Part shown: one piece after another, positions 1-24,214 of the stretch | Layout: each line of letters begins with the position of its first letter | Position numbering within the stretch: position 1 is the stretch's first letter | Origin: a virus | Virus record (IMG/VR): IMGVR_UViG_3300034198_000359 | Coordinates: 1-24,276 of that record | Reading direction: 5' to 3' (one strand) | Length of the DNA stretch: 24,276 nucleotides | The notes under the pieces: model-generated | The model's input: the letters and a program-made list of their open reading frames with translations, nothing else | Databases searched by the model: none | What the model was told of the DNA's origin: nothing | Program-made: the position numbers and the translations under genes

Positions 1-974
1 AGTCAGTACAAGCACCTATTGCTATTCCACAGGATGTACAAGAACTTGCTCTCGGACCTGATTCAATTATGCGTTCATCTAACCCACAAGGTATTCGTCG
101 CGTTCCACTAGAACTACCTGCTGGCGTATTCCAAGAGTCACAAGTACTTGATCGTGAACTTCGTATGGGTGCTCGTTATCCTGAAACTCGTTCAGGAGAT
201 GTAAGCGCATCCGTTATTACTGGTCGTGGTGTACAAGCACTACAGGCTGGCTTTGATTCACAAATCAAGGCAGCACAAGCACAGTTTGCTTTGATGTTCA
301 CACATTTGCTATCAATGGCTTTCAAGGTTGACGAAAAGATCTTTGGTAATAAGGTCAAGGAAATTCGTGGACTTGATGATGGTATGCCGTACTCAATGAA
401 GTACACACCATCAAAGGCAATCGCTGGTGACTATTCTGTAGATGTTCGTTACGGAATTATGTCCGGTATGAACCCTAACAACGCTATCGTTGCGTTGCTA
501 CAAATGCGTTCAGACAAACTTGTATCACGTGACTATGTACGCCGTGAACTACCAGTTGAAATTAACATCAGCCAAGAAGAACAAAAGGTTGATATTGAAG
601 AGATGCGCGATGCACTGCGACTTGCAGTATCCCAATACGCACAAGCCGTACCAACCCTTGCTTCTCAAGGTCAAGATGTATCATTAGTTATTACTAGAAT
701 TGCAGATGTCATCAAGGGCCGTCAAAAGGGCCTTATGATTGAAACAGTAGTTGAGAAGGCGTTTGCGCCTGAACAACCTGCTTCTGGTGGAGTACCGCAA
801 GGTTCACCAGGACAGCCTCCTATGTCTCCAGCAGCAGGTGGACTTCCCACCCCTGCCTCGCAGCCCCAATCTCCACAACCCCAAGGTGGCGCAAACCCTG
901 CTGCTGGACCACAAGCTCCTCAAGGAAAACCAGATATAGCATCATTGCTTGCATCAATCGGCGGCGCAGCATAA
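1..974 (+). CDS. Portal protein, C-terminal part (5' end outside window)
   Basis: The reading frame is open from the left edge (first full codon at base 3), so the ATG at 69 is probably internal and this is the last ~323 residues of a longer protein. The visible part is mostly helical, with a Thr/Ser/Gly segment (SASVITGRGVQAL) leading into long amphipathic helices. It ends in a Pro/Gln/Gly-rich, disordered tail of about 60 residues, common at the C-terminus of phage portals. A portal forms the dodecameric ring at one capsid vertex through which DNA is packaged and ejected. The call rests on the helical pattern, the P/Q-rich tail and its place at the head of a virion gene block that includes scaffold and capsid. 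It could be another large head protein, because the diagnostic N-terminal half is not in the window. Confidence 0.68.
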   Translation, partial: SVQAPIAIPQDVQELALGPDSIMRSSNPQGIRRVPLELPAGVFQESQVLDRELRMGARYPETRSGDVSASVITGRGVQALQAGFDSQIKAAQAQFALMFTHLLSMAFKVDEKIFGNKVKEIRGLDDGMPYSMKYTPSKAIAGDYSVDVRYGIMSGMNPNNAIVALLQMRSDKLVSRDYVRRELPVEINISQEEQKVDIEEMRDALRLAVSQYAQAVPTLASQGQDVSLVITRIADVIKGRQKGLMIETVVEKAFAPEQPASGGVPQGSPGQPPMSPAAGGLPTPASQPQSPQPQGGANPAAGPQAPQGKPDIASLLASIGGAA

Positions 975-1796: not shown

Positions 1797-4700
1797 TTGG
1801 GTAACGCAAACATACAAGGCGCGGCTATACAAGCCGGATTAAACCCAAAAGAGTTAGAACAAGTTTCTGCTCTAAATAAAATTTTAGATTCACACCGTGC
1901 TCTTTTGGCTATGCCCGAAGATCAAGCTAAGGTAGCCTTCGCTAGTAAGCCACAAGATCAACAAGTTGCTCACGCAGCTTTGTTCGGTGGTATGAACCCT
2001 ATTGGTTGGCTAGGTGACGCGGCTCACTATTTAACTCAAGGCGTAAAGACAGCAATCGCTGCACCATTTAAGGCGCTTAATGAAGTCTCTGACTTTATGA
2101 CCCGCATTTACCGTACTGGTGCTATCGCTGTAGATCAAGGCGTTGACCTTGGTAAAGCCTTTCAAATAGCAAACGATAATGGTAACAAGGTATTTAGCCC
2201 AGGACGTATTGACGCTGCTAGAAAACAATATGGCGCAGATACAATGTCTGTAGCAATGAAAGTTGCTAGTGGAACTCCGCTAGATTCTATTCTTGCTAAT
2301 GGCACAGATGCTGAAAAGCAAGTTGCTGCATCTGCAGCCCAAGGTGCCGATAAGTTTTTCCAAGATGCTTTAGATGCAGCGCAAGCTGCTAAGTATTCTC
2401 CAGGACGCCAGATTGCTAACTTATTACTTCCAGGTTCAATGGAAGGTTCTGGTGCTTTATACAAAGGCATTTCAGGATTCTTTGATGCTTCATATCGGAT
2501 CTTTGCTGATCCTACCCTTGCTCTAGGTAAAGCTAAAAAAGCATACGATGTTGCTAACTACGCTTTATTTAAGATTGCTGGTAGTGCTGAAGGTGTAGAT
2601 CGTGCCTTTTCTAAACCAGGTGTAGTTGATTTCTTTAATGCTTATGGTCCTGAACTAGATAAACTGAGTAAAGCACGCAAAGAAAAAGATGTTATAGCAG
2701 CAGAACAGGCTTCAACTAACCTTCGTCGTTTAGCACCGGAGTTTGGCCCAACAGCACAAGATGAATTTATTAAGGCTGGTGTCAAAGATGCGCCTACTGC
2801 TCGCAACTATTTACAGAACCACGCTGATATATCACAGATCCTACAAGGTCAAGCTGCTCGTAAGACTCCGCTGATCCCTAGGTTAGATCTTTCTCGTAAA
2901 GCACGGGTAACATTTTTAACAACAGCAGACAAAGTATTCAACATAAATCAGGTAGGACAAAAACTTGTATCAGGACTCTACGGCGATGGTAGCATTGCTT
3001 ACCAAGATATCACAACAGGGCTTAATGCGAACGCTGAGGCTATTGCTGGTGCCGAAAGACAAGTTGGAAAACTAAAGCAAGACGGAGCATACCGTTTATC
3101 TTTCAATCAAATTGCTGGAAAGATTGATCGCTTCGCTGCTAAGTTTACTTCTATTCCTTATTTCAAAGATGGATTCTTTGATACCTCTGCTCCTAATGCT
3201 TCAACTCAGGTTTATCGCCTAGCACGTTTGTCTAATACTCGTTACCATTCTCGTATTGTTCAAGAGGCTTTCCAAGCTGGCGATGAAGGTCAAAGAAAAC
3301 AAATCTTTACTGGACTCTGGAATACTATTGCTGAAACTCGAGGAGTATCCAAGGGTGAAGCAGGACAGACTTTCCTACAAGATTTTGCTGGCACCGGTGC
3401 TGCTAAACAATATGCTGCTGATGTAGAGCGTACTGTTACAGATGAGAACGGTGTATCAACGGTTATCCGCGATAACCCTGCATCTTTTGATGGTGAACAA
3501 CTTGCTTTGTTTCCATACCAACTTTCTCCAGCAATGGCAGTTCCATCTATCCAAGACTTGAGTAAGTTACCAGCGCTAGATGCTCTCTACTCACGTATGT
3601 TTGGACAGAACTACCGTCAATGGTCACGTAAGATGACTGACTTCTGGGTTATTGGTACACTTGCTGGACCTAAGTTTCCAGTGCGTAACGCCGCAGAAGA
3701 TTTAATGATGCACGCTGCTGCCGGTGATTCAACTTGGGGTATCGTTAAAGGTCGTTTCCTTTCAACTAAAATCCGTCAAGCACAAGCACAAGGTGATCTT
3801 GGTTTCATTCAAAAACTTGTATCGCGTAATCAAACTAAAGAATATGCTCAAAAGATTTCAGATGCTGTTGAGTCAGGTTCACCTGATGCCGCACGTAAAG
3901 TAATGGCTGAAGCTGTACTTAATGATAGTATTGTCTCTAAGTTAGATCCAGAAGCAACTCAAATTCTTTCTGAAATTGCTCATTATGGAAACTTGAATGA
4001 CACTCTAAAAGCTGTATCAGAAGGTGGAAAGAACGCCCTTCGTGGTGGAGATCAATACTTAAATGTATCTAATGATGTATCTCGTTTTGGTAAAATGGGT
4101 GCTATAGAAGTTGATGGCGTTAAATATAAAGCCTCCACTAATGGTGAAGCCTATACAGATTTTAACCCAGTAGCTAATAAACAATCTCGCATCTCTTGGT
4201 TAGTTCAACTTGGTATTACATCTAATGATTACTTAGCAAAGATTGCTGTAAAGAATTTAGATAAGCCTGAAGTTGCTATTGCTGAGATGACTAAGTATCT
4301 TGATGAACTTCCAACAGTTCTACGCAACCGTTTCCAATCAATGTCTGCTAAAGGTATTACATCTCAACAGCACGCAGAACGTGCTTTCCAAGCAGTACAA
4401 AACCTTTACTCAAAAGCAGACGGAACTCTTAATACAGATCTATGGAATAAAGTTGCTAGACTTGATAAGTCAGGTAATCGTGTAGTTTCAACAGCAGATC
4501 TTCGTTTAAGTGATCTACCTCATACAACTAATCTTGCTCCTAAATTTGTACACGGCCCAACACTTGTACCAGTCTCTGAGGCTTCTAATCCAGCAGCAGG
4601 ACTTATTGACCGTACTTGGGATTATATGGGTGAAGCTAACTCACGTTTCTCACGTGAGCCAGCAGTACTAGATGCAATGATTCGTATCCGCAAAGATATG

Positions 4701-6425
4701 ATCTCTAGTAATTATGACAAGCACTATATGGATTTAATGACTGCCGGTAAAACTGGTGATGATTTAATCAAAGCAACTGAATATGCTAAAGCACACTTAG
4801 TATCTATATCTGAGGATATGGCTAAACAACGTATTCTTGCTTATGTAGATAATCCAGCAGTACGAAGCCAGCTTGCTTTTTCTGTAACTAACTTTGCTCG
4901 GTTCTACCGCGCTACTGAAGATTTCTATCGCCGTGTTTATCGTACGGTTAAGTACAACCCAGAAGCTCTTACTCGAGCATCGCTTACCTATGAAGGTATA
5001 GCACACTCAGGTTTTGTACAAACAGATGATGCTGGTAACCAGTACTTCTTTTACCCAGGATTAACTCCTGTATATACCGCTATGAATAAAATGCTAAAAG
5101 TATTTGGTGTAAAAGACGCATTTAAGACAGGTATTCCGATTGATTTCGGCGCACAACTAAAGATGATTACTCCATCTTTGAACCCAGATTCTTTGTTCCC
5201 AACATTCTCTGGACCTTTGGCTGCTGTCCCAATCAAGGCTATTGGAAATATTATTCCACAAGTTAAAGACTTAGAACAGTATTTAACTGGTACCTATGGC
5301 CCAGATCAACCAATGATCTCAGCCGTATTACCTGGTCACGTTAATCGTTTACTAGCTGCACTAAGCACCGATGAACGCAACTCTCAGTTTGCTTCTGCTG
5401 CTCGTAAAGCCGCAACTTACCTTGAGGCTAGTGGTCACGGACTTGATGTTAAGATTGATCCAAAGACCGGACAAGAAATTCCTCCGTCTGCTGGAGAGAT
5501 TGCTGACTATCAGAATAAGCTACAGGGTTCTACAATGACTGTTCTTGCTCTTCGATTCCTTATGGGATTTGTATCCCCAGCAACTCCATCTGTTACCTTA
5601 AAGTCTGATATGGCAAACTGGGTAAAAGATAACCAACGTGTATCTTACAAGCAAGTATTTAACAACCTTATTAACCAATACAACGGTGATATTGATAAGG
5701 CTACTAAAGAATGGCTAAGACTATTTCCAAAGGAAATGCCTTATACAGTTTCTGAAACAGAGAGTACTGTTAACGCTAACGTTCGTGCGGTAACTAGTGC
5801 TACTGACTGGATCAAAACACATAAAGACGTTTTGAAAAAGTACCCTGAAGGTGGTGCCTACCTGATTCCACAGGCAGGTAAGTTTGACTTCAACGCATAC
5901 AAGTTATTGCAAACTGCTGGGCTAAAGACTAACAAGACTCTTACAGACTTTGTTCGTCAAGTAGCATCTTCTAAAGATGTTCAAACATATTACGATATGA
6001 AAGATAAGTTTGATCAACAGATGGCTATGACTCTTGATACTGCTGCTAAGCGCCAGATCCGCGATCAATGGACTGCTTGGTCAGATGAGTTCAAGGGCGC
6101 TCGTCCATTGCTGCAAGAACAACTTGGTACTGGTAGCGCTACTGCTATCCAGCGTACAAAGGCTTTGAATGACTTACGCTTAATGCTTGCTGATAAGACT
6201 GTAACTACTCAACAAAATGTACAATCTAAGTTGAGAGAAATGCTTTCATCATATGATGCGTATGTAACTAATAGAGACTTTGCTAATCAACCTAGTTCCA
6301 ATTTTTCACAACAATATAAAGATGCTTTGAAAATAAGTGCTAAACAACAGATTCAAAATATTGCTCAAGGTGACCCAAGCACACTTGCTGCATTTAATAC
6401 TATGTTCGCACCACTACTTCGATAA
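1797..6425 (+). CDS. Giant helical structural protein, putative internal virion/ejection protein (1542 aa)
   Basis: The largest gene in the window, starting at TTG 1797 directly after the preceding stop. The product is Ala-rich and overwhelmingly helical, without signal peptide, clear transmembrane helix, or the Glu/GxS pattern of a lytic transglycosylase that I could find. Notable stretches are MNPIGWLGDAAHYLTQGVKT near residue 63, GPKFPVRNAAEDLMMHAA near 620, and an aromatic Arg/Tyr-rich stretch (NFARFYRATEDFYRRVYR) near residue 1030. Length and composition resemble phage ejection proteins such as T7 gp16 (about 1300 aa), which leave the capsid ahead of the DNA and cross the cell envelope. 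A tape-measure protein is the alternative, but there is no tail-tube gene and the gene lies between portal and capsid rather than among tail genes. Confidence 0.6.
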   Translation: MGNANIQGAAIQAGLNPKELEQVSALNKILDSHRALLAMPEDQAKVAFASKPQDQQVAHAALFGGMNPIGWLGDAAHYLTQGVKTAIAAPFKALNEVSDFMTRIYRTGAIAVDQGVDLGKAFQIANDNGNKVFSPGRIDAARKQYGADTMSVAMKVASGTPLDSILANGTDAEKQVAASAAQGADKFFQDALDAAQAAKYSPGRQIANLLLPGSMEGSGALYKGISGFFDASYRIFADPTLALGKAKKAYDVANYALFKIAGSAEGVDRAFSKPGVVDFFNAYGPELDKLSKARKEKDVIAAEQASTNLRRLAPEFGPTAQDEFIKAGVKDAPTARNYLQNHADISQILQGQAARKTPLIPRLDLSRKARVTFLTTADKVFNINQVGQKLVSGLYGDGSIAYQDITTGLNANAEAIAGAERQVGKLKQDGAYRLSFNQIAGKIDRFAAKFTSIPYFKDGFFDTSAPNASTQVYRLARLSNTRYHSRIVQEAFQAGDEGQRKQIFTGLWNTIAETRGVSKGEAGQTFLQDFAGTGAAKQYAADVERTVTDENGVSTVIRDNPASFDGEQLALFPYQLSPAMAVPSIQDLSKLPALDALYSRMFGQNYRQWSRKMTDFWVIGTLAGPKFPVRNAAEDLMMHAAAGDSTWGIVKGRFLSTKIRQAQAQGDLGFIQKLVSRNQTKEYAQKISDAVESGSPDAARKVMAEAVLNDSIVSKLDPEATQILSEIAHYGNLNDTLKAVSEGGKNALRGGDQYLNVSNDVSRFGKMGAIEVDGVKYKASTNGEAYTDFNPVANKQSRISWLVQLGITSNDYLAKIAVKNLDKPEVAIAEMTKYLDELPTVLRNRFQSMSAKGITSQQHAERAFQAVQNLYSKADGTLNTDLWNKVARLDKSGNRVVSTADLRLSDLPHTTNLAPKFVHGPTLVPVSEASNPAAGLIDRTWDYMGEANSRFSREPAVLDAMIRIRKDMISSNYDKHYMDLMTAGKTGDDLIKATEYAKAHLVSISEDMAKQRILAYVDNPAVRSQLAFSVTNFARFYRATEDFYRRVYRTVKYNPEALTRASLTYEGIAHSGFVQTDDAGNQYFFYPGLTPVYTAMNKMLKVFGVKDAFKTGIPIDFGAQLKMITPSLNPDSLFPTFSGPLAAVPIKAIGNIIPQVKDLEQYLTGTYGPDQPMISAVLPGHVNRLLAALSTDERNSQFASAARKAATYLEASGHGLDVKIDPKTGQEIPPSAGEIADYQNKLQGSTMTVLALRFLMGFVSPATPSVTLKSDMANWVKDNQRVSYKQVFNNLINQYNGDIDKATKEWLRLFPKEMPYTVSETESTVNANVRAVTSATDWIKTHKDVLKKYPEGGAYLIPQAGKFDFNAYKLLQTAGLKTNKTLTDFVRQVASSKDVQTYYDMKDKFDQQMAMTLDTAAKRQIRDQWTAWSDEFKGARPLLQEQLGTGSATAIQRTKALNDLRLMLADKTVTTQQNVQSKLREMLSSYDAYVTNRDFANQPSSNFSQQYKDALKISAKQQIQNIAQGDPSTLAAFNTMFAPLLR

Positions 6426-9184: not shown

Positions 9185-9222
9185 AGGTCTGCGATCAAAC
9201 TAACAGAATGGGAGATGGACTA

Positions 9223-9699
9223 ATGTCCAATTACGACTACGAGGACGATGAGTTCGATACCACAGAAGATACTTCTGTAAGTACGAATAATGATCTCGTC
9301 AAACAGTTGCGTAAAGCAAACAATGCCAAAGAAAAAGAACTCGCTGAGCTACAAGCTAAGATGGGTGACCTTTCAAAGGCACAAAGAGAACGAGCTATTA
9401 AGGATGTCCTCGAAGCTCGCGGAGTAAATAAGAAGATTGCTTCTTTTATTCCATCGGACCTAGACCCAACTGAGGAGTCTTTGTCTAAGTGGTTAGACGA
9501 TAACAGCGATGTTTTCGGATTATCCACTGAATCAAACCAGGATAATGTAGACCCAGCACAGGCTGCTGCATACAAGAAGATGAATCAAGCTGTTAACAAT
9601 GGACTCACCCCTGATTCCAATGATGACATTATGAAGAGACTTCTAAATGCAGAAACGCCTGAACAATTAGCTGAGGTTATGCGGAGTTCTGGACTCTAA
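9223..9699 (+). CDS. Capsid scaffolding protein (158 aa)
   Basis: ATG 9223 is chosen over ATG 9208 because GGGAGA at 9210-9215 lies seven bases before it and nothing like a ribosome site precedes 9208. The protein has an acidic N-terminus (YDYEDDEFDTTED), a strong coiled coil at ~22-60 (LVKQLRKANNAKEKELAELQ), an acidic Ser/Asp middle, and a short amphipathic C-terminal helix. This arrangement is typical of scaffolding proteins, which fill the procapsid, guide capsid assembly through a C-terminal helix, and then exit or are cleaved. It directly precedes the major capsid gene, the usual scaffold position. No separate protease gene is seen in the head block. Confidence 0.8.
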   Translation: MSNYDYEDDEFDTTEDTSVSTNNDLVKQLRKANNAKEKELAELQAKMGDLSKAQRERAIKDVLEARGVNKKIASFIPSDLDPTEESLSKWLDDNSDVFGLSTESNQDNVDPAQAAAYKKMNQAVNNGLTPDSNDDIMKRLLNAETPEQLAEVMRSSGL

Positions 9700-9723: not shown

Positions 9724-10653
9724 ATGGCAGTTCCAGGCGGAACCCTTACTGGCACCTCGGCAATCAGCAACCTCGTACAAACAGCGTATGACCAATATGT
9801 CCGTATGGCATTGCGTTCAATCCCTGTTATGCGTTCGTTGGCTGATGTCAAGCCAGTACAACAAGCGATGCCAGGTTCATCAGTTGTATTCTCAATCTAT
9901 TCTGATTTAGCGCAAGCTACTTCAACATTGACAGAAGCATCAGATGTATCTTCTATCGCTCTTGGTAACCCAACACAGGTACCAGTAACACTACAAGAAT
10001 ACGGCTCAGCCGTAACAACAACCAAGAAGTTGAACCTAACTTCTTTCAACGATGTTGATCAAGCACTTGCTGACATCATCGCTTACAACGCAGCAGATTC
10101 TATTGACTCTGTAGTTGCATCAGTACTTACTGGAGGATCTAACGTTCTCTATGCAGGTACAGCAACATCAACTAACAGCATTACTTCTGCACAGAAGATG
10201 ACTGTTTCACTTCTTCGTTCAGCAGTAACTGAACTTCGCACAAACAAGGCTTTGCCTCGTATCGGCGAACTATATGCTGCTTACCTACACCCACGCCAGA
10301 CAGCCGATCTTCGCGCTGAAACAGGCACCGGTGGATTCCAGGAACTATCAAAGTACGTAGATCGCACACCATTCGTGGCTGGCGCAGTTGGCGTAATTGA
10401 AGGTGCGTTCGTTGTAGAAACACCTCGCGTTCCATTCGCAGCTAACACAGGTTCTGTAAACGTCTACAAGGCAGTTGTTGCCGGACGTGAAGCACTTGCT
10501 GAAGCGATGGGCCAAGACATCTCAACCGTCATTGGACCCCAAATTGACGCCTTGCGTCGTTTCCACACAATCGGTTGGTACTACTTCGGCGGATGGTCAC
10601 TCCTACGTCAAGCAGCACTTTACCGTATCGAAACTGCCGCAACAAACGGTTAA
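9724..10653 (+). CDS. Major capsid protein, N4-gp56-like HK97 fold (309 aa)
   Basis: A 309-residue protein directly after the scaffold gene, with a GAAAGG ribosome site at 9710-9715. Family-like features are an N-terminal helix (LVQTAYDQYVRMALRSIPVM, ~17-36), a short loop with QAMPGSSVVF (~47-56), the Thr/Ser-rich strand region, and LQEYGSAVTTTKKLNLTSF (~90-108) followed by a long spine-like helix. This matches the N4-gp56 major capsid family as I know it. The protein would form the icosahedral shell. Codon choice looks more selective than in neighbours (many CGT, CTT and GCA codons), as expected for the most abundant product. Two hairpins follow the stop and may stabilise this mRNA. Confidence 0.85.
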   Translation: MAVPGGTLTGTSAISNLVQTAYDQYVRMALRSIPVMRSLADVKPVQQAMPGSSVVFSIYSDLAQATSTLTEASDVSSIALGNPTQVPVTLQEYGSAVTTTKKLNLTSFNDVDQALADIIAYNAADSIDSVVASVLTGGSNVLYAGTATSTNSITSAQKMTVSLLRSAVTELRTNKALPRIGELYAAYLHPRQTADLRAETGTGGFQELSKYVDRTPFVAGAVGVIEGAFVVETPRVPFAANTGSVNVYKAVVAGREALAEAMGQDISTVIGPQIDALRRFHTIGWYYFGGWSLLRQAALYRIETAATNG

Positions 10654-12118: not shown

Positions 12119-14039
<1,921 letters not shown>

Positions 14040-22248: not shown

Positions 22249-22518
22249 ATGAATCCCGCTGATTGGTCAGGCATTGTCTATGCCTATTTTTTTGTAGCTA
22301 CTGGTGTCTTATGGGGAATCATAAGAGCGTTACATCATACAATTCTTACAGTAATAAACACAGCACTTGAACCTGTATGTGAAGACTTAACTAAGATTAA
22401 GTACCAGTTGTATAACAATGGTGGTGAATCTATGAAAGATTCTATTGATCGTATAGAAAAAGATGCTATTGAATTAAGAATTAACCAAGCAATAATTAAA
22501 GCAAAGCTGGAAAACTAA
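22249..22518 (+). CDS. Membrane-anchored coiled-coil protein of lysis cassette, DUF2746-like (89 aa)
   Basis: ATG 22249 follows AAGGA at 22240-22244. One transmembrane segment lies at ~8-26 (GIVYAYFFVATGVLWGIIR). A charged helix and a motif NNGGESMKDSIDRIE follow, leading to a C-terminal coiled coil. The NGGxSxxDxxxRIE pattern recalls DUF2746-type proteins found beside lysis genes in actinobacteriophages, where the role may be holin-like or spanin-like. Its stop overlaps the endolysin start (TAATG), so the two are coupled. Confidence 0.65.
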   Translation: MNPADWSGIVYAYFFVATGVLWGIIRALHHTILTVINTALEPVCEDLTKIKYQLYNNGGESMKDSIDRIEKDAIELRINQAIIKAKLEN

Positions 22519-23000
22519 TGGGATTAAAGGAAGATTTCGTTGCCAAAGCAAGATCAGAAATCGGTTACATTGAAGGTCCAGGGGATAATGAAACTAAATT
22601 CCAGAAGATCCACGCTGCTTGGTGCGGAGCGTTCCTTAACTGGTGTGCAAAAGAAATTGGCTTTACTGGGATGCCTAACCTTGTATACACACCGACGGGC
22701 GCGTCAGCGTTCCAAGGCAAAGGCGCTTGGTCGAATCCTGCTACTGCTAAGCCTGAGCCTGGTGACATTGTGTTCTTTGATTTTCCAGGAGGTCAAAAAA
22801 TTGACCACGTTGGAGTTGTGGTAAAAGATAATTTAGATGGAACTGTTGTGACCGTCGAGGGAAACACTAGTCCAGATACCAAACCTGCCGGTAATCAAAG
22901 TAACGGCGGAGAAGTTTGCCTCAAGGTACGCGCTTACAAGGCAGATAACAAAAGAAAGTTACCAGTATACGTAGCTGGTTTCGGAAGACCAAAATGGTAA
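22518..23000 (+). CDS. CHAP-domain endolysin (160 aa)
   Basis: ATG overlaps the previous stop. This is a CHAP (NlpC/P60-clan) amidase/endopeptidase with catalytic Cys36 in HAAWCGAFLNWCAKEIGF, His97 in KIDHVGVVV, and Glu114 in VVTVEGNTSPDT. PEPGDIVFFDFP is the usual connecting strand before the His. It cuts peptidoglycan peptide bonds or cross-bridges to release virions. At 160 residues it is essentially the catalytic domain alone, with no clear wall-binding domain after residue ~150 and no signal peptide, so export depends on a holin. It lies between two membrane-protein genes, a standard lysis cassette. A structural wall hydrolase is less likely given this context. Confidence 0.88.
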   Translation: MGLKEDFVAKARSEIGYIEGPGDNETKFQKIHAAWCGAFLNWCAKEIGFTGMPNLVYTPTGASAFQGKGAWSNPATAKPEPGDIVFFDFPGGQKIDHVGVVVKDNLDGTVVTVEGNTSPDTKPAGNQSNGGEVCLKVRAYKADNKRKLPVYVAGFGRPKW

Positions 23001-23010
23001 AAGGAGCAAT

Positions 23011-23220
23011 ATGAAGTTCAATAATAAAGCAGTAGAGATCTGGGCCAAGTGGTTCGTTGGTAATGCCATCACAGCAGTAGTTGTAATTGGCAAGTCACCA
23101 ATAGATTTCACAGGATCAGATTGGCATCACGCAGCCAACACAATCTGGCTAGCAGTAGTTCCAGTGCTAATTGCTTGGGCTAACCCAAAGCACGATTTCA
23201 CAATGACAGTTAAGAAGTAA
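23011..23220 (+). CDS. Putative holin, two transmembrane segments, r1t-like (69 aa)
   Basis: ATG 23011 follows AAAAGGAGC at 22999-23007. Hydrophobic segments at ~14-28 (WFVGNAITAVVVIG) and ~41-57 (AANTIWLAVVPVLIAWA) are separated by a short polar turn with FTGSDWHH. A basic tail (TVKK) ends the protein. Size, two membrane helices and the acidic/Trp turn match small phage holins such as the r1t type, which form membrane lesions that free the endolysin. It is the last gene before a strong terminator, so it closes the late operon. Confidence 0.75.
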   Translation: MKFNNKAVEIWAKWFVGNAITAVVVIGKSPIDFTGSDWHHAANTIWLAVVPVLIAWANPKHDFTMTVKK

Positions 23221-23247
23221 CCAGACTCTTACTGCGAGGCACTAAAG

Positions 23248-23279
23248 GCCCATCCCTTCGGGGGTGGGCTTCTTTTTTT
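23248..23279 (+). terminator. Rho-independent terminator ending the late operon
   Basis: GCCCATCCC (23248-23256), loop TTCG, GGGGTGGGC (23261-23269) with one T-G pair, followed by TTCTTTTTTT. This strong terminator lies 27 bases after the holin stop. In reverse it has only a short T-run (CTTTAG), so it may weakly serve the minus-strand gene that ends at 23288. Confidence 0.92.
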
Positions 23280-23287
23280 ATGCCGTT

Positions 23288-23512
23288 TTACGGTTTGTCT
23301 AAAGGGCAGGGAACGATTACTAGGTTGCCACAGTTGACGCACTCAGCGTCAAGGTGGTACCAAGCGATCTCATAGTCATCAAAAGCTGCTGCAATGTAGA
23401 ATGTTTTTGACCCACAGGAACAGGCGTGGACCGGACCAAAGGCCCTTAGATCAGTTCCAAAACGCTCTGGGAGCTGTTTAATTTTACGCAGGGATGGTAG
23501 ACGGAGTCGCAC
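23288..23512 (-). CDS. Zinc-ribbon protein (74 aa)
   Basis: Minus-strand gene starting at GTG 23512, with GAGAGG six bases upstream on that strand. A basic N-terminus (MRLRLPSLRKIKQLPERFG) is followed by a two-knuckle zinc ribbon: Cys31-x-Cys33 in HACSCGSKTF and Cys58-x-x-Cys61 in DAECVNCGNLV. FDDYEIAWYHLDAECVNCG and the ending PCPLDKP match a short zinc-ribbon family I know from actinobacterial phages. Zinc ribbons of this size often bind nucleic acid or other proteins. The gene stands alone and opposite to the late genes, sharing a control region with the proteasome-like gene. A regulatory role is possible but not shown. Confidence 0.7.
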   Translation of the reverse strand: MRLRLPSLRKIKQLPERFGTDLRAFGPVHACSCGSKTFYIAAAFDDYEIAWYHLDAECVNCGNLVIVPCPLDKP

Positions 23513-23573: not shown

Positions 23574-23601
23574 TTGTAATCACCGAAACGCCTAGTATGA
23601 T
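23574..23601 (+). promoter_or_regulatory. Candidate promoter for the proteasome-like gene
   Basis: TTGTAA (23574-23579) and TATGAT (23596-23601) are 16 bases apart, with four and five matches to the sigma-70-type boxes. Transcription would start near 23608, leaving a ~34-base leader. The complementary strand of the -35 area reads TTACAAT, a possible -10 for the minus-strand zinc-ribbon gene, so the two promoters may overlap. Confidence 0.5.
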
Positions 23602-23641
23602 AAATAAAGGACTTCGTGGCGTGTCGTGATAGACTTCACAT

Positions 23642-24214
23642 ATGACCACACTTACAGGATACCAAGGTGACGGCTTTGTTGTCCTCGCTGCTGACTCACA
23701 GATTACAGAAGATAACTTAATAACTATCTCAACTAAGACGCCAAAGATTCTTACTCGAGGTAAGTATCTACTAGGCATAGTCGGTGATTCAAGACCAGGA
23801 GATATCCTTGCTTACAACTGGAACCCACCTGCTTTTAAGCCAGCCGATGATCCGATACAACATATGGGTCGTAAGGTTATCCCCAGTATTGTGCGAGCAT
23901 TTAGTGACGGTAACTACACGTGGGACAGGGCTGATAAAGAATCAGGTTTTGATTACCTGATAGCTTTTAACGGTCACCTATTTCATATAGCTTGCGATAT
24001 GTCCTTTATCCAGTCAGACTACGGAATATACGGACTTGGAACCGGTGGACAATTTGCTATGGGTTACCTATGGGCGATGAAGGATGCCACGATTGAATAT
24101 GAATGGGATACCGACTCGGCAAAAATGTTCTTGACGGACGCAATTAAGTGTGCGACTATTTTCGATGTAAACACAGGACTACCAATTCAGGTAGAACTAC
24201 AGAAACGGGGATAA
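23642..24214 (+). CDS. Proteasome-beta/HslV-like Ntn-hydrolase protease (190 aa)
   Basis: The sequence opens MTTLTGYQGDGFVVLAADSQ, lining up with HslV (MTTI...GxVVIAGDGQxT) and proteasome beta subunits. Counting from the Thr after Met: Thr1 nucleophile, Asp17, Gln19, Thr21, Asn24, Lys34-Ile35 in the place of Lys33, and Gly47 in GIVGD. Further on, GLGTGGQFAMG (Thr133) takes the Ser129 position, and AIKCATIFDVNTGLPIQVEL gives Asp174 and Thr177 for Asp166 and Ser169, a conservative Ser-to-Thr swap. There is no propeptide, so Met removal would expose Thr1 as in HslV. At 189 mature residues it has HslV-like length. It likely assembles into a ring and cleaves proteins. Targets could be host regulators or phage proteins. 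No unfoldase (HslU, Mpa or ClpX-like) is seen in the window. No clear ribosome site precedes the ATG. Confidence 0.83.
   Translation: MTTLTGYQGDGFVVLAADSQITEDNLITISTKTPKILTRGKYLLGIVGDSRPGDILAYNWNPPAFKPADDPIQHMGRKVIPSIVRAFSDGNYTWDRADKESGFDYLIAFNGHLFHIACDMSFIQSDYGIYGLGTGGQFAMGYLWAMKDATIEYEWDTDSAKMFLTDAIKCATIFDVNTGLPIQVELQKRG

Follow-up and report, generated by a model that had tools for sequence, protein, structure and literature searches.

A virus record of 24 kb and 42% GC (IMG/VR record IMGVR_UViG_3300034198_000359, positions 1 to 24,276, the whole of which we call the window) ends in a gene for an HslV/BPH-like peptidase with an N-terminal threonine (23642..24214, plus strand, ATG start, 190 amino acids). 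The explanation that we favor, and on balance a probable one, is that its product is an early threonine peptidase whose task is also within reach of another protease: in sister phages, an unrelated zinc peptidase occupies the same slot behind the same promoter.

A viral member of the proteasome superfamily

That the protein belongs to the proteasome superfamily, in family and in fold, is virtually certain. The original prediction of a proteasome/HslV-like Ntn hydrolase is borne out by profile matches, by the fold and by two family models. PF00227 is matched through the N-terminal part (E 3.8e-5; 23.9 bits against a curated cut-off of 22.4), as it is by 49 of 51 relatives, and PHROG 1040, the "peptidase HslV family," covers the whole length at E 5e-20. 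At least 595 viral relatives were found. Searching the PDB with the single sequence returned no significant match. A profile built from 51 viral sequences aligned residues 2–184 with BPH and HslV structures at E about 1e-11 (HslV 5e-11), and with yeast β5 at E about 4e-7. The protein is not HslV proper by the NCBIfam HslV equivalog, against which it scores 19.2 bits relative to a cut-off of 157.75. The gene is under purifying selection, with a dN/dS of about 0.08 against its nearest homologue (L003, 97%) and of 0.06–0.20 in comparisons with others, which have a nearly saturated dS. An extra copy of the gene within the genome was ruled out (single copy, 23 of 23 records).

AlphaFold2 run on the 51-sequence profile gave a model with pLDDT 89 and pTM 0.87; an alignment of 24 close homologues reached a pLDDT of 44, which rose to 89 on adding relatives of the E7 and DSL types. 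Foldseek placed BPH as the best match, and VIA-align 2 superposed model residues 2..190 on residues 1..189 of the 5ovt chain (Z 20.0, 2.7 Å over 173 residues), such that model residue 2 falls on Thr1 of 5ovt. Helices are modeled at 50–59 and 71–89. As modeled, the protein would thus adopt the alpha-beta-beta-alpha fold with Thr as residue 1 that defines the superfamily. The comparison of residues 2–190 with 20S beta subunits and HslV that had been proposed for the protein hence yields a significant profile match and a fold closest to BPH.

The catalytic residues are in place. Under the methionine aminopeptidase rule, an MT-T start leads to Met removal and an exposed Thr. Residues Thr2, Asp18, Lys35 and Gly48 correspond to Thr1, Asp17, Lys33 and Gly47 of the superfamily, with Lys35 aligned to the catalytic Lys of HslV in the profile alignment, and these four together with Thr3 are invariant across the 51 aligned rows. 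The original claim of an N-terminal Thr after Met removal, accompanied by equivalents of Asp17 and Lys33, agrees with this. Its supporting triad Thr133/Asp174/Thr177 is correct as mature numbering, being Thr134/Asp175/Thr178 in the full-length protein. The further suggestion that Ser-to-Thr swaps mark a clade fails, since 57 of 61 relatives have Ser at position 134 (mature 133, the 129 equivalent); Thr178 is almost invariant across the family. A GDxR motif, typical of the family, adjoins the oxyanion glycine. We predict, with good confidence, that the protein is an active enzyme.

The phage and its likely host

Other genes of the window are as follows: the C-terminal part of the portal (3..974, plus strand), the gene that the protease gene follows in the E7 clade; a 1542-residue protein behind it (1797–6425), matched by neither Pfam nor PHROG and 27–29% identical to its E7 homologue, which may be a virion protein, ejected or internal; a separate scaffold-like protein (9208..9699, plus strand); the major head protein (9724..10653, plus strand), whose profile match spans residues 7–307 of 309 and which has no long N-terminal prodomain; a 528-residue protein with long collagen repeats (12453–14039; PF01391, E 1e-51); a CHAP endolysin supported by profile matches (22518..23000, plus strand); and, last in the late operon, a small holin-like protein with a weak match (23011..23220, plus strand). 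The structural genes are collinear with those of LanE43-AprE7, at 50% identity for the portal, 47% for the capsid and up to 56% for the tail part. "Ca. Planktophila" LanE-43 served as isolation host for E7 and its companion F5 (PMC10202952).

Loci 97% identical over the protease gene continue beyond the end of the window with a run of genes for a Cas4-like exonuclease, a gp49-like protein, WhiB and DnaB, followed by a Holliday resolvase, a primase and a sigma factor, so that the replication module comes after the protease gene. WhiB is a mark of actinophages (PMC10202952), and its presence in near relatives, alongside the E7 collinearity, agrees with the original assignment to an actinophage. 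From these two features and the 42% GC we infer that the window's own host is a Nanopelagicales-type actinobacterium.

A conserved promoter at the protease slot

A terminator-like hairpin with a T run (23246..23281, plus strand) closes the late operon. Beyond it lies a divergent 74-residue gene with several Cys (23288..23512, minus strand), which, by the criterion used, forms the upstream edge of the protease slot in 75 of 77 relatives, neighbors being counted with named marker genes. It has no family match; the window's clade keeps it beside the slot, and the E7 clade has it at another place. The protease gene has its own promoter, as had been claimed: an extended −10 element TGATAGACT (TGN-TANNNT; 23627..23635, plus strand) stands six bases before the ATG, a probable leaderless start, and its spacing is conserved in relatives. 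Of the 45 unique upstream regions in the window clade, 38 carry a TANNNT whose end is 5–8 bases from the start codon (6 or 7 in 36 of them); at no single spacing does the motif reach 4% among 793 other gene starts. Among the seven exceptions, six show a Shine-Dalgarno sequence, and most of these six keep the promoter at a greater distance upstream. Mycobacterium tuberculosis often makes leaderless mRNAs, and its TANNNT is centered 7–12 bases ahead of the start site (PMC3898074). Because of this pattern and the conserved spacing, a leaderless transcript made at 23642 by a host-type polymerase is predicted as likely.

Immediately upstream of the −10 lies a second conserved motif, GGCGTGTCG (23618..23626, plus strand), which in most relatives reads CGACACGCC. 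The latter or its complement sits just upstream of the −10 and, outside coding sequence, is almost confined to the protease-slot promoter. A wider GGCGTGTCG regulon was considered and ruled out, as the window holds one exact match and noncoding matches in relatives fall almost only at the slot promoter. Comparing window positions 23600–23641 with three relatives (L024, L034, L029) shows the motif before the −10 in either orientation, and in several relatives it lies between matching arms (CTACG...CGTAG, CTAACG...CGTTAG). The CGACACGCC region is a possible operator between the two divergent genes. Early expression of the protease gene is likely in the window clade; it does not extend to the whole family, given that the E7-clade homologue has a Shine-Dalgarno sequence and sits behind the portal.

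Exchange with an unrelated zinc peptidase

Among 23 records (19 chosen by capsid, four by DnaB), the protease gene is present in one copy in 18 and absent in five. In all five, the interval from the 74-residue gene to the exonuclease encodes instead a protein of 110–132 amino acids with an HExxH motif, preceded by the same promoter motif. In a census for which contigs were picked by capsid protein and not by protease gene, the slot could be read in 25 contigs: 19 hold the HslV-like gene, six the zinc peptidase, and none is empty or otherwise filled. Searching for the zinc peptidase itself yielded 44 loci, 41 in the slot and none with the HslV-like gene, the other three being distant relatives from other phages. 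Across 14 whole records the two proteases never occur together, while the same search was positive in 18 of the 23 capsid- or DnaB-chosen records. On a DnaB tree the protease label switches four times, and at least three of these switches are required by well-supported branches.

The replacement is a minimal zinc peptidase, as exemplified in sister phages at L366:525-854, L368:15159-15554, L371:6603-6932 and L364:12550-12888. It matches PHROG 1233 and resembles DUF6782/M78, with Pfam metallopeptidase families near or below cut-off, and its H53, E54, H57 and E75 (HExxH...E) are invariant in 35 sequences. Genomes that carry it have the same portal, together with a capsid protein 85–90% identical and a scaffold 64–66% identical. 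Outside this phage family, the T5-like Pantoea phage AAS21 (L171) encodes a protease of the HslV family with a putative metallopeptidase eight genes farther along, so that both protease types possibly share one genome there.

Because unrelated peptidases exclude each other in one slot, it is likely that one has been replaced by the other under a single promoter and that proteolysis is the selected function. Whether they also share a substrate is a step we take only tentatively. We would advance with similar reserve the fuller idea of a dedicated cassette, in which a conserved early leaderless promoter drives either peptidase and both remove the same host factor, in hosts lacking a proteasome. 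Alternatively, early anti-host genes in general might be exchanged at the slot, with two peptidases there by history and without shared function. The sharing of the promoter while the coding content switches, the three or more exchanges, and the extra small ORFs that sometimes lie between the slot gene and the exonuclease all fit such a site. We nevertheless consider it unlikely, as a peptidase sits in every one of the 25 capsid-chosen slots and whole genomes carry one peptidase or the other, never both.

A possible capsid role and the E7 clade

A shared proteolytic task in early infection has also to be weighed against head maturation. Phages of the cultured Planktophila clade carry the homologue (L083:7500-8033, and at L090-L169) with an SD-like start, directly behind the portal at 79 of 80 loci. 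Whole records of this clade have exactly one copy, and E7 and eight E7-type records contained neither a zinc peptidase nor a second homologue. Gene position has thus switched within a collinear phage family. The original argument, that a position outside the late operon speaks against a capsid protease, is not supported, given these related cultured phages, and a capsid role is reopened for the E7 clade: there the gene falls between portal and major head protein, whereas in the window it does not.

For the window clade, a procapsid-maturation or scaffold-removing protease relocated within the genome seems quite unlikely. The place behind the portal is the usual slot of head maturation proteases, which together with the 79 E7-type loci lends the idea some weight, as does the fact that no other prohead protease was recognized in the window. 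However, genomes with capsids 85–90% identical use an unrelated metallopeptidase in the early slot, which is a reason to doubt a capsid role here. Moreover, the major head protein lacks a long N-terminal prodomain, relatives in other phages adjoin nucleotide-metabolism or PhoH genes, and the window-clade gene has its own promoter behind the late terminator.

Place among known proteasome homologues

The gene is known in kind: it is a member of PHROG 1040, and the novelty implied by the original prediction was overstated, since the phage homologues PPH and AAH were published in 2021. That survey by Fuchs, Alva and Lupas described phage-borne proteasome homologues and found no AAA+ partner, no actinophage carrier of AAH and no genomic context hinting at function (PMC8665760). 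Like AAH and PPH, which are phage-borne group I homologues, the window protein has no known AAA+ partner. It differs from PPH, which has about 140 residues and lacks helix H2, in its 190 residues and in having both helices; AAH was reported without an actinophage carrier (PMC8665760). The 51-sequence profile also detected full-length relatives in 25 of 297 genomes of the host class. These AAH-like actinomycete proteins, probably the AAH of the survey, have a T-C start, mostly lack Gly47 and group with proteobacterial phage homologues as a separate branch, whereas the window clade has a T-T start and Gly47. A peptide-pattern search of GTDB contigs found no relatives of the window protein, and no relatives of the Pumpernickel gene were found in IMG/VR.

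In a tree with PrcB, HslV and phage homologues, as had been proposed, the window clade joins the E7 clade in a single group (98/97), and PrcB and E. coli HslV fall outside it. The idea of a distinct phage clade thus stands, shared with E7, while the Ser-to-Thr swap does not serve as its mark. Origin from a host PrcB was ruled out by the tree position.

Other comparisons are instructive. Annotated PHROG 1040 homologues from DSL-LC01, Vibrio, Aeromonas and T5-like phages belong to the same family by profile, but at 23–32% identity to the window protein, in other contexts and with no protease exchange described; in DSL-LC01, from lake water, WhiB likewise lies next to the homologue. BPH from Thiobacillus denitrificans (5OVS/5OVT) is the best fold match at 24% identity, yet it is bacterial rather than phage-borne. 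HslV (ClpQ) shares the single-subunit type with Thr1, Asp17 and Lys33, but has a cognate HslU, which the window phage and host-type genomes lack. The Planktophila phages LanE43-AprE7 and F5 belong to the same phage family, have been cultured with their host, and carry one homologue each at 31.8% identity, placed behind the portal with an SD-like start, unlike the window gene with its different position and own promoter. The main text on these phages mentions no proteasome-like protein (PMC10202952). A literature search returned nothing on proteasomes in Nanopelagicales, nor on phage proteasomes beyond the 2021 survey. Nor does the literature searched describe this clade in actinophages, the exchange at the slot or the lack of a proteasome in the host.

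Could the protein be an Ntn hydrolase other than a protease, for example a connectase-like ligase or an amidase? The superfamily does include the protein ligase connectase (PMC8665760), and GDxR beside the oxyanion glycine could change specificity. Canonical Thr1/Asp17/Lys33/Gly47, a fold closest to BPH, HslV and beta subunits, and a metallopeptidase as replacement, which points to proteolysis, make this very unlikely.

Likely hosts, mostly without a proteasome

The LanE-43 chromosome and seven related Planktophila-type genomes contain no PF00227 protein, Pup ligase or HslU over cut-off; in these eight the HslU profile picks up AAA+ proteins other than HslU, with the sizes of ClpX, FtsH and ClpC. 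The Mpa profile gave nothing over cut-off in six of the eight, where its best matches were FtsH-sized, but scored above 800 bits in two members of the order that carry PrcAB. More broadly, PF00227 is absent from 147 of 151 sampled genomes of the order and a PrcA/PrcB pair is present in four (the search was positive in 10 of 14 control genomes). The four retaining PrcA/PrcB are larger, at 1.8–1.9 Mb (G059, G084, G135, G159), with Mpa in both of those tested; proteasome loss in the order is patchy, perhaps along with genome streamlining. ClpX- and ClpC-like AAA+ proteins are present in host-type genomes, and no AAA+ of the Clp/HslU type was found in the 23 phage records.

The original prediction had raised the prospect of a subunit joining or poisoning the host Pup-proteasome. 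With likely hosts lacking PF00227, Pup ligase and Mpa, the host core normally offers no such target; although some Actinobacteria, including four of the 151 sampled order members, have PrcA/PrcB, a subunit acting on a host 20S proteasome is exceedingly unlikely given that LanE-43 and 146 other sampled order genomes are without PF00227, that no Pup ligase or Mpa appeared in the genomes tested, and that the protein lies far from PrcB on the tree. Neither the tree nor the host-type genomes, without PF00227 and Mpa, would class it as a PrcB.

Proposed mechanism and outlook

We envisage a lytic phage that infects streamlined freshwater Actinobacteria (Nanopelagicales) and carries a peptidase of the HslV/BPH branch with an N-terminal threonine. 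Host RNA polymerase would probably read the gene early from its own leaderless promoter, as the first of the replication module. Removal of Met would leave Thr1 as the nucleophile, and the subunit may assemble into a homo-oligomeric ring, as HslV and BPH do; by this analogy, a small ring is somewhat favored. With HslU and Mpa absent from phage and host, the protease might work unaided or with a borrowed ClpX or ClpC. Early in infection it would cut or degrade a small number of proteins, perhaps a single one, and most likely host or defence proteins; the same task would be open to the unrelated small zinc peptidase that sister phages hold in the same slot behind the same promoter.

The host order is among the most abundant freshwater bacterial orders. 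Proteasome-like genes occur on no fewer than 595 viral contigs, and many of these contigs are closely related to phages that infect this order. Mutual exclusion with an unrelated peptidase amounts to a natural complementation experiment and offers a route to the substrate, and a cultured phage–host pair with a homologue—E7 and F5 on LanE-43—makes the question experimentally approachable.
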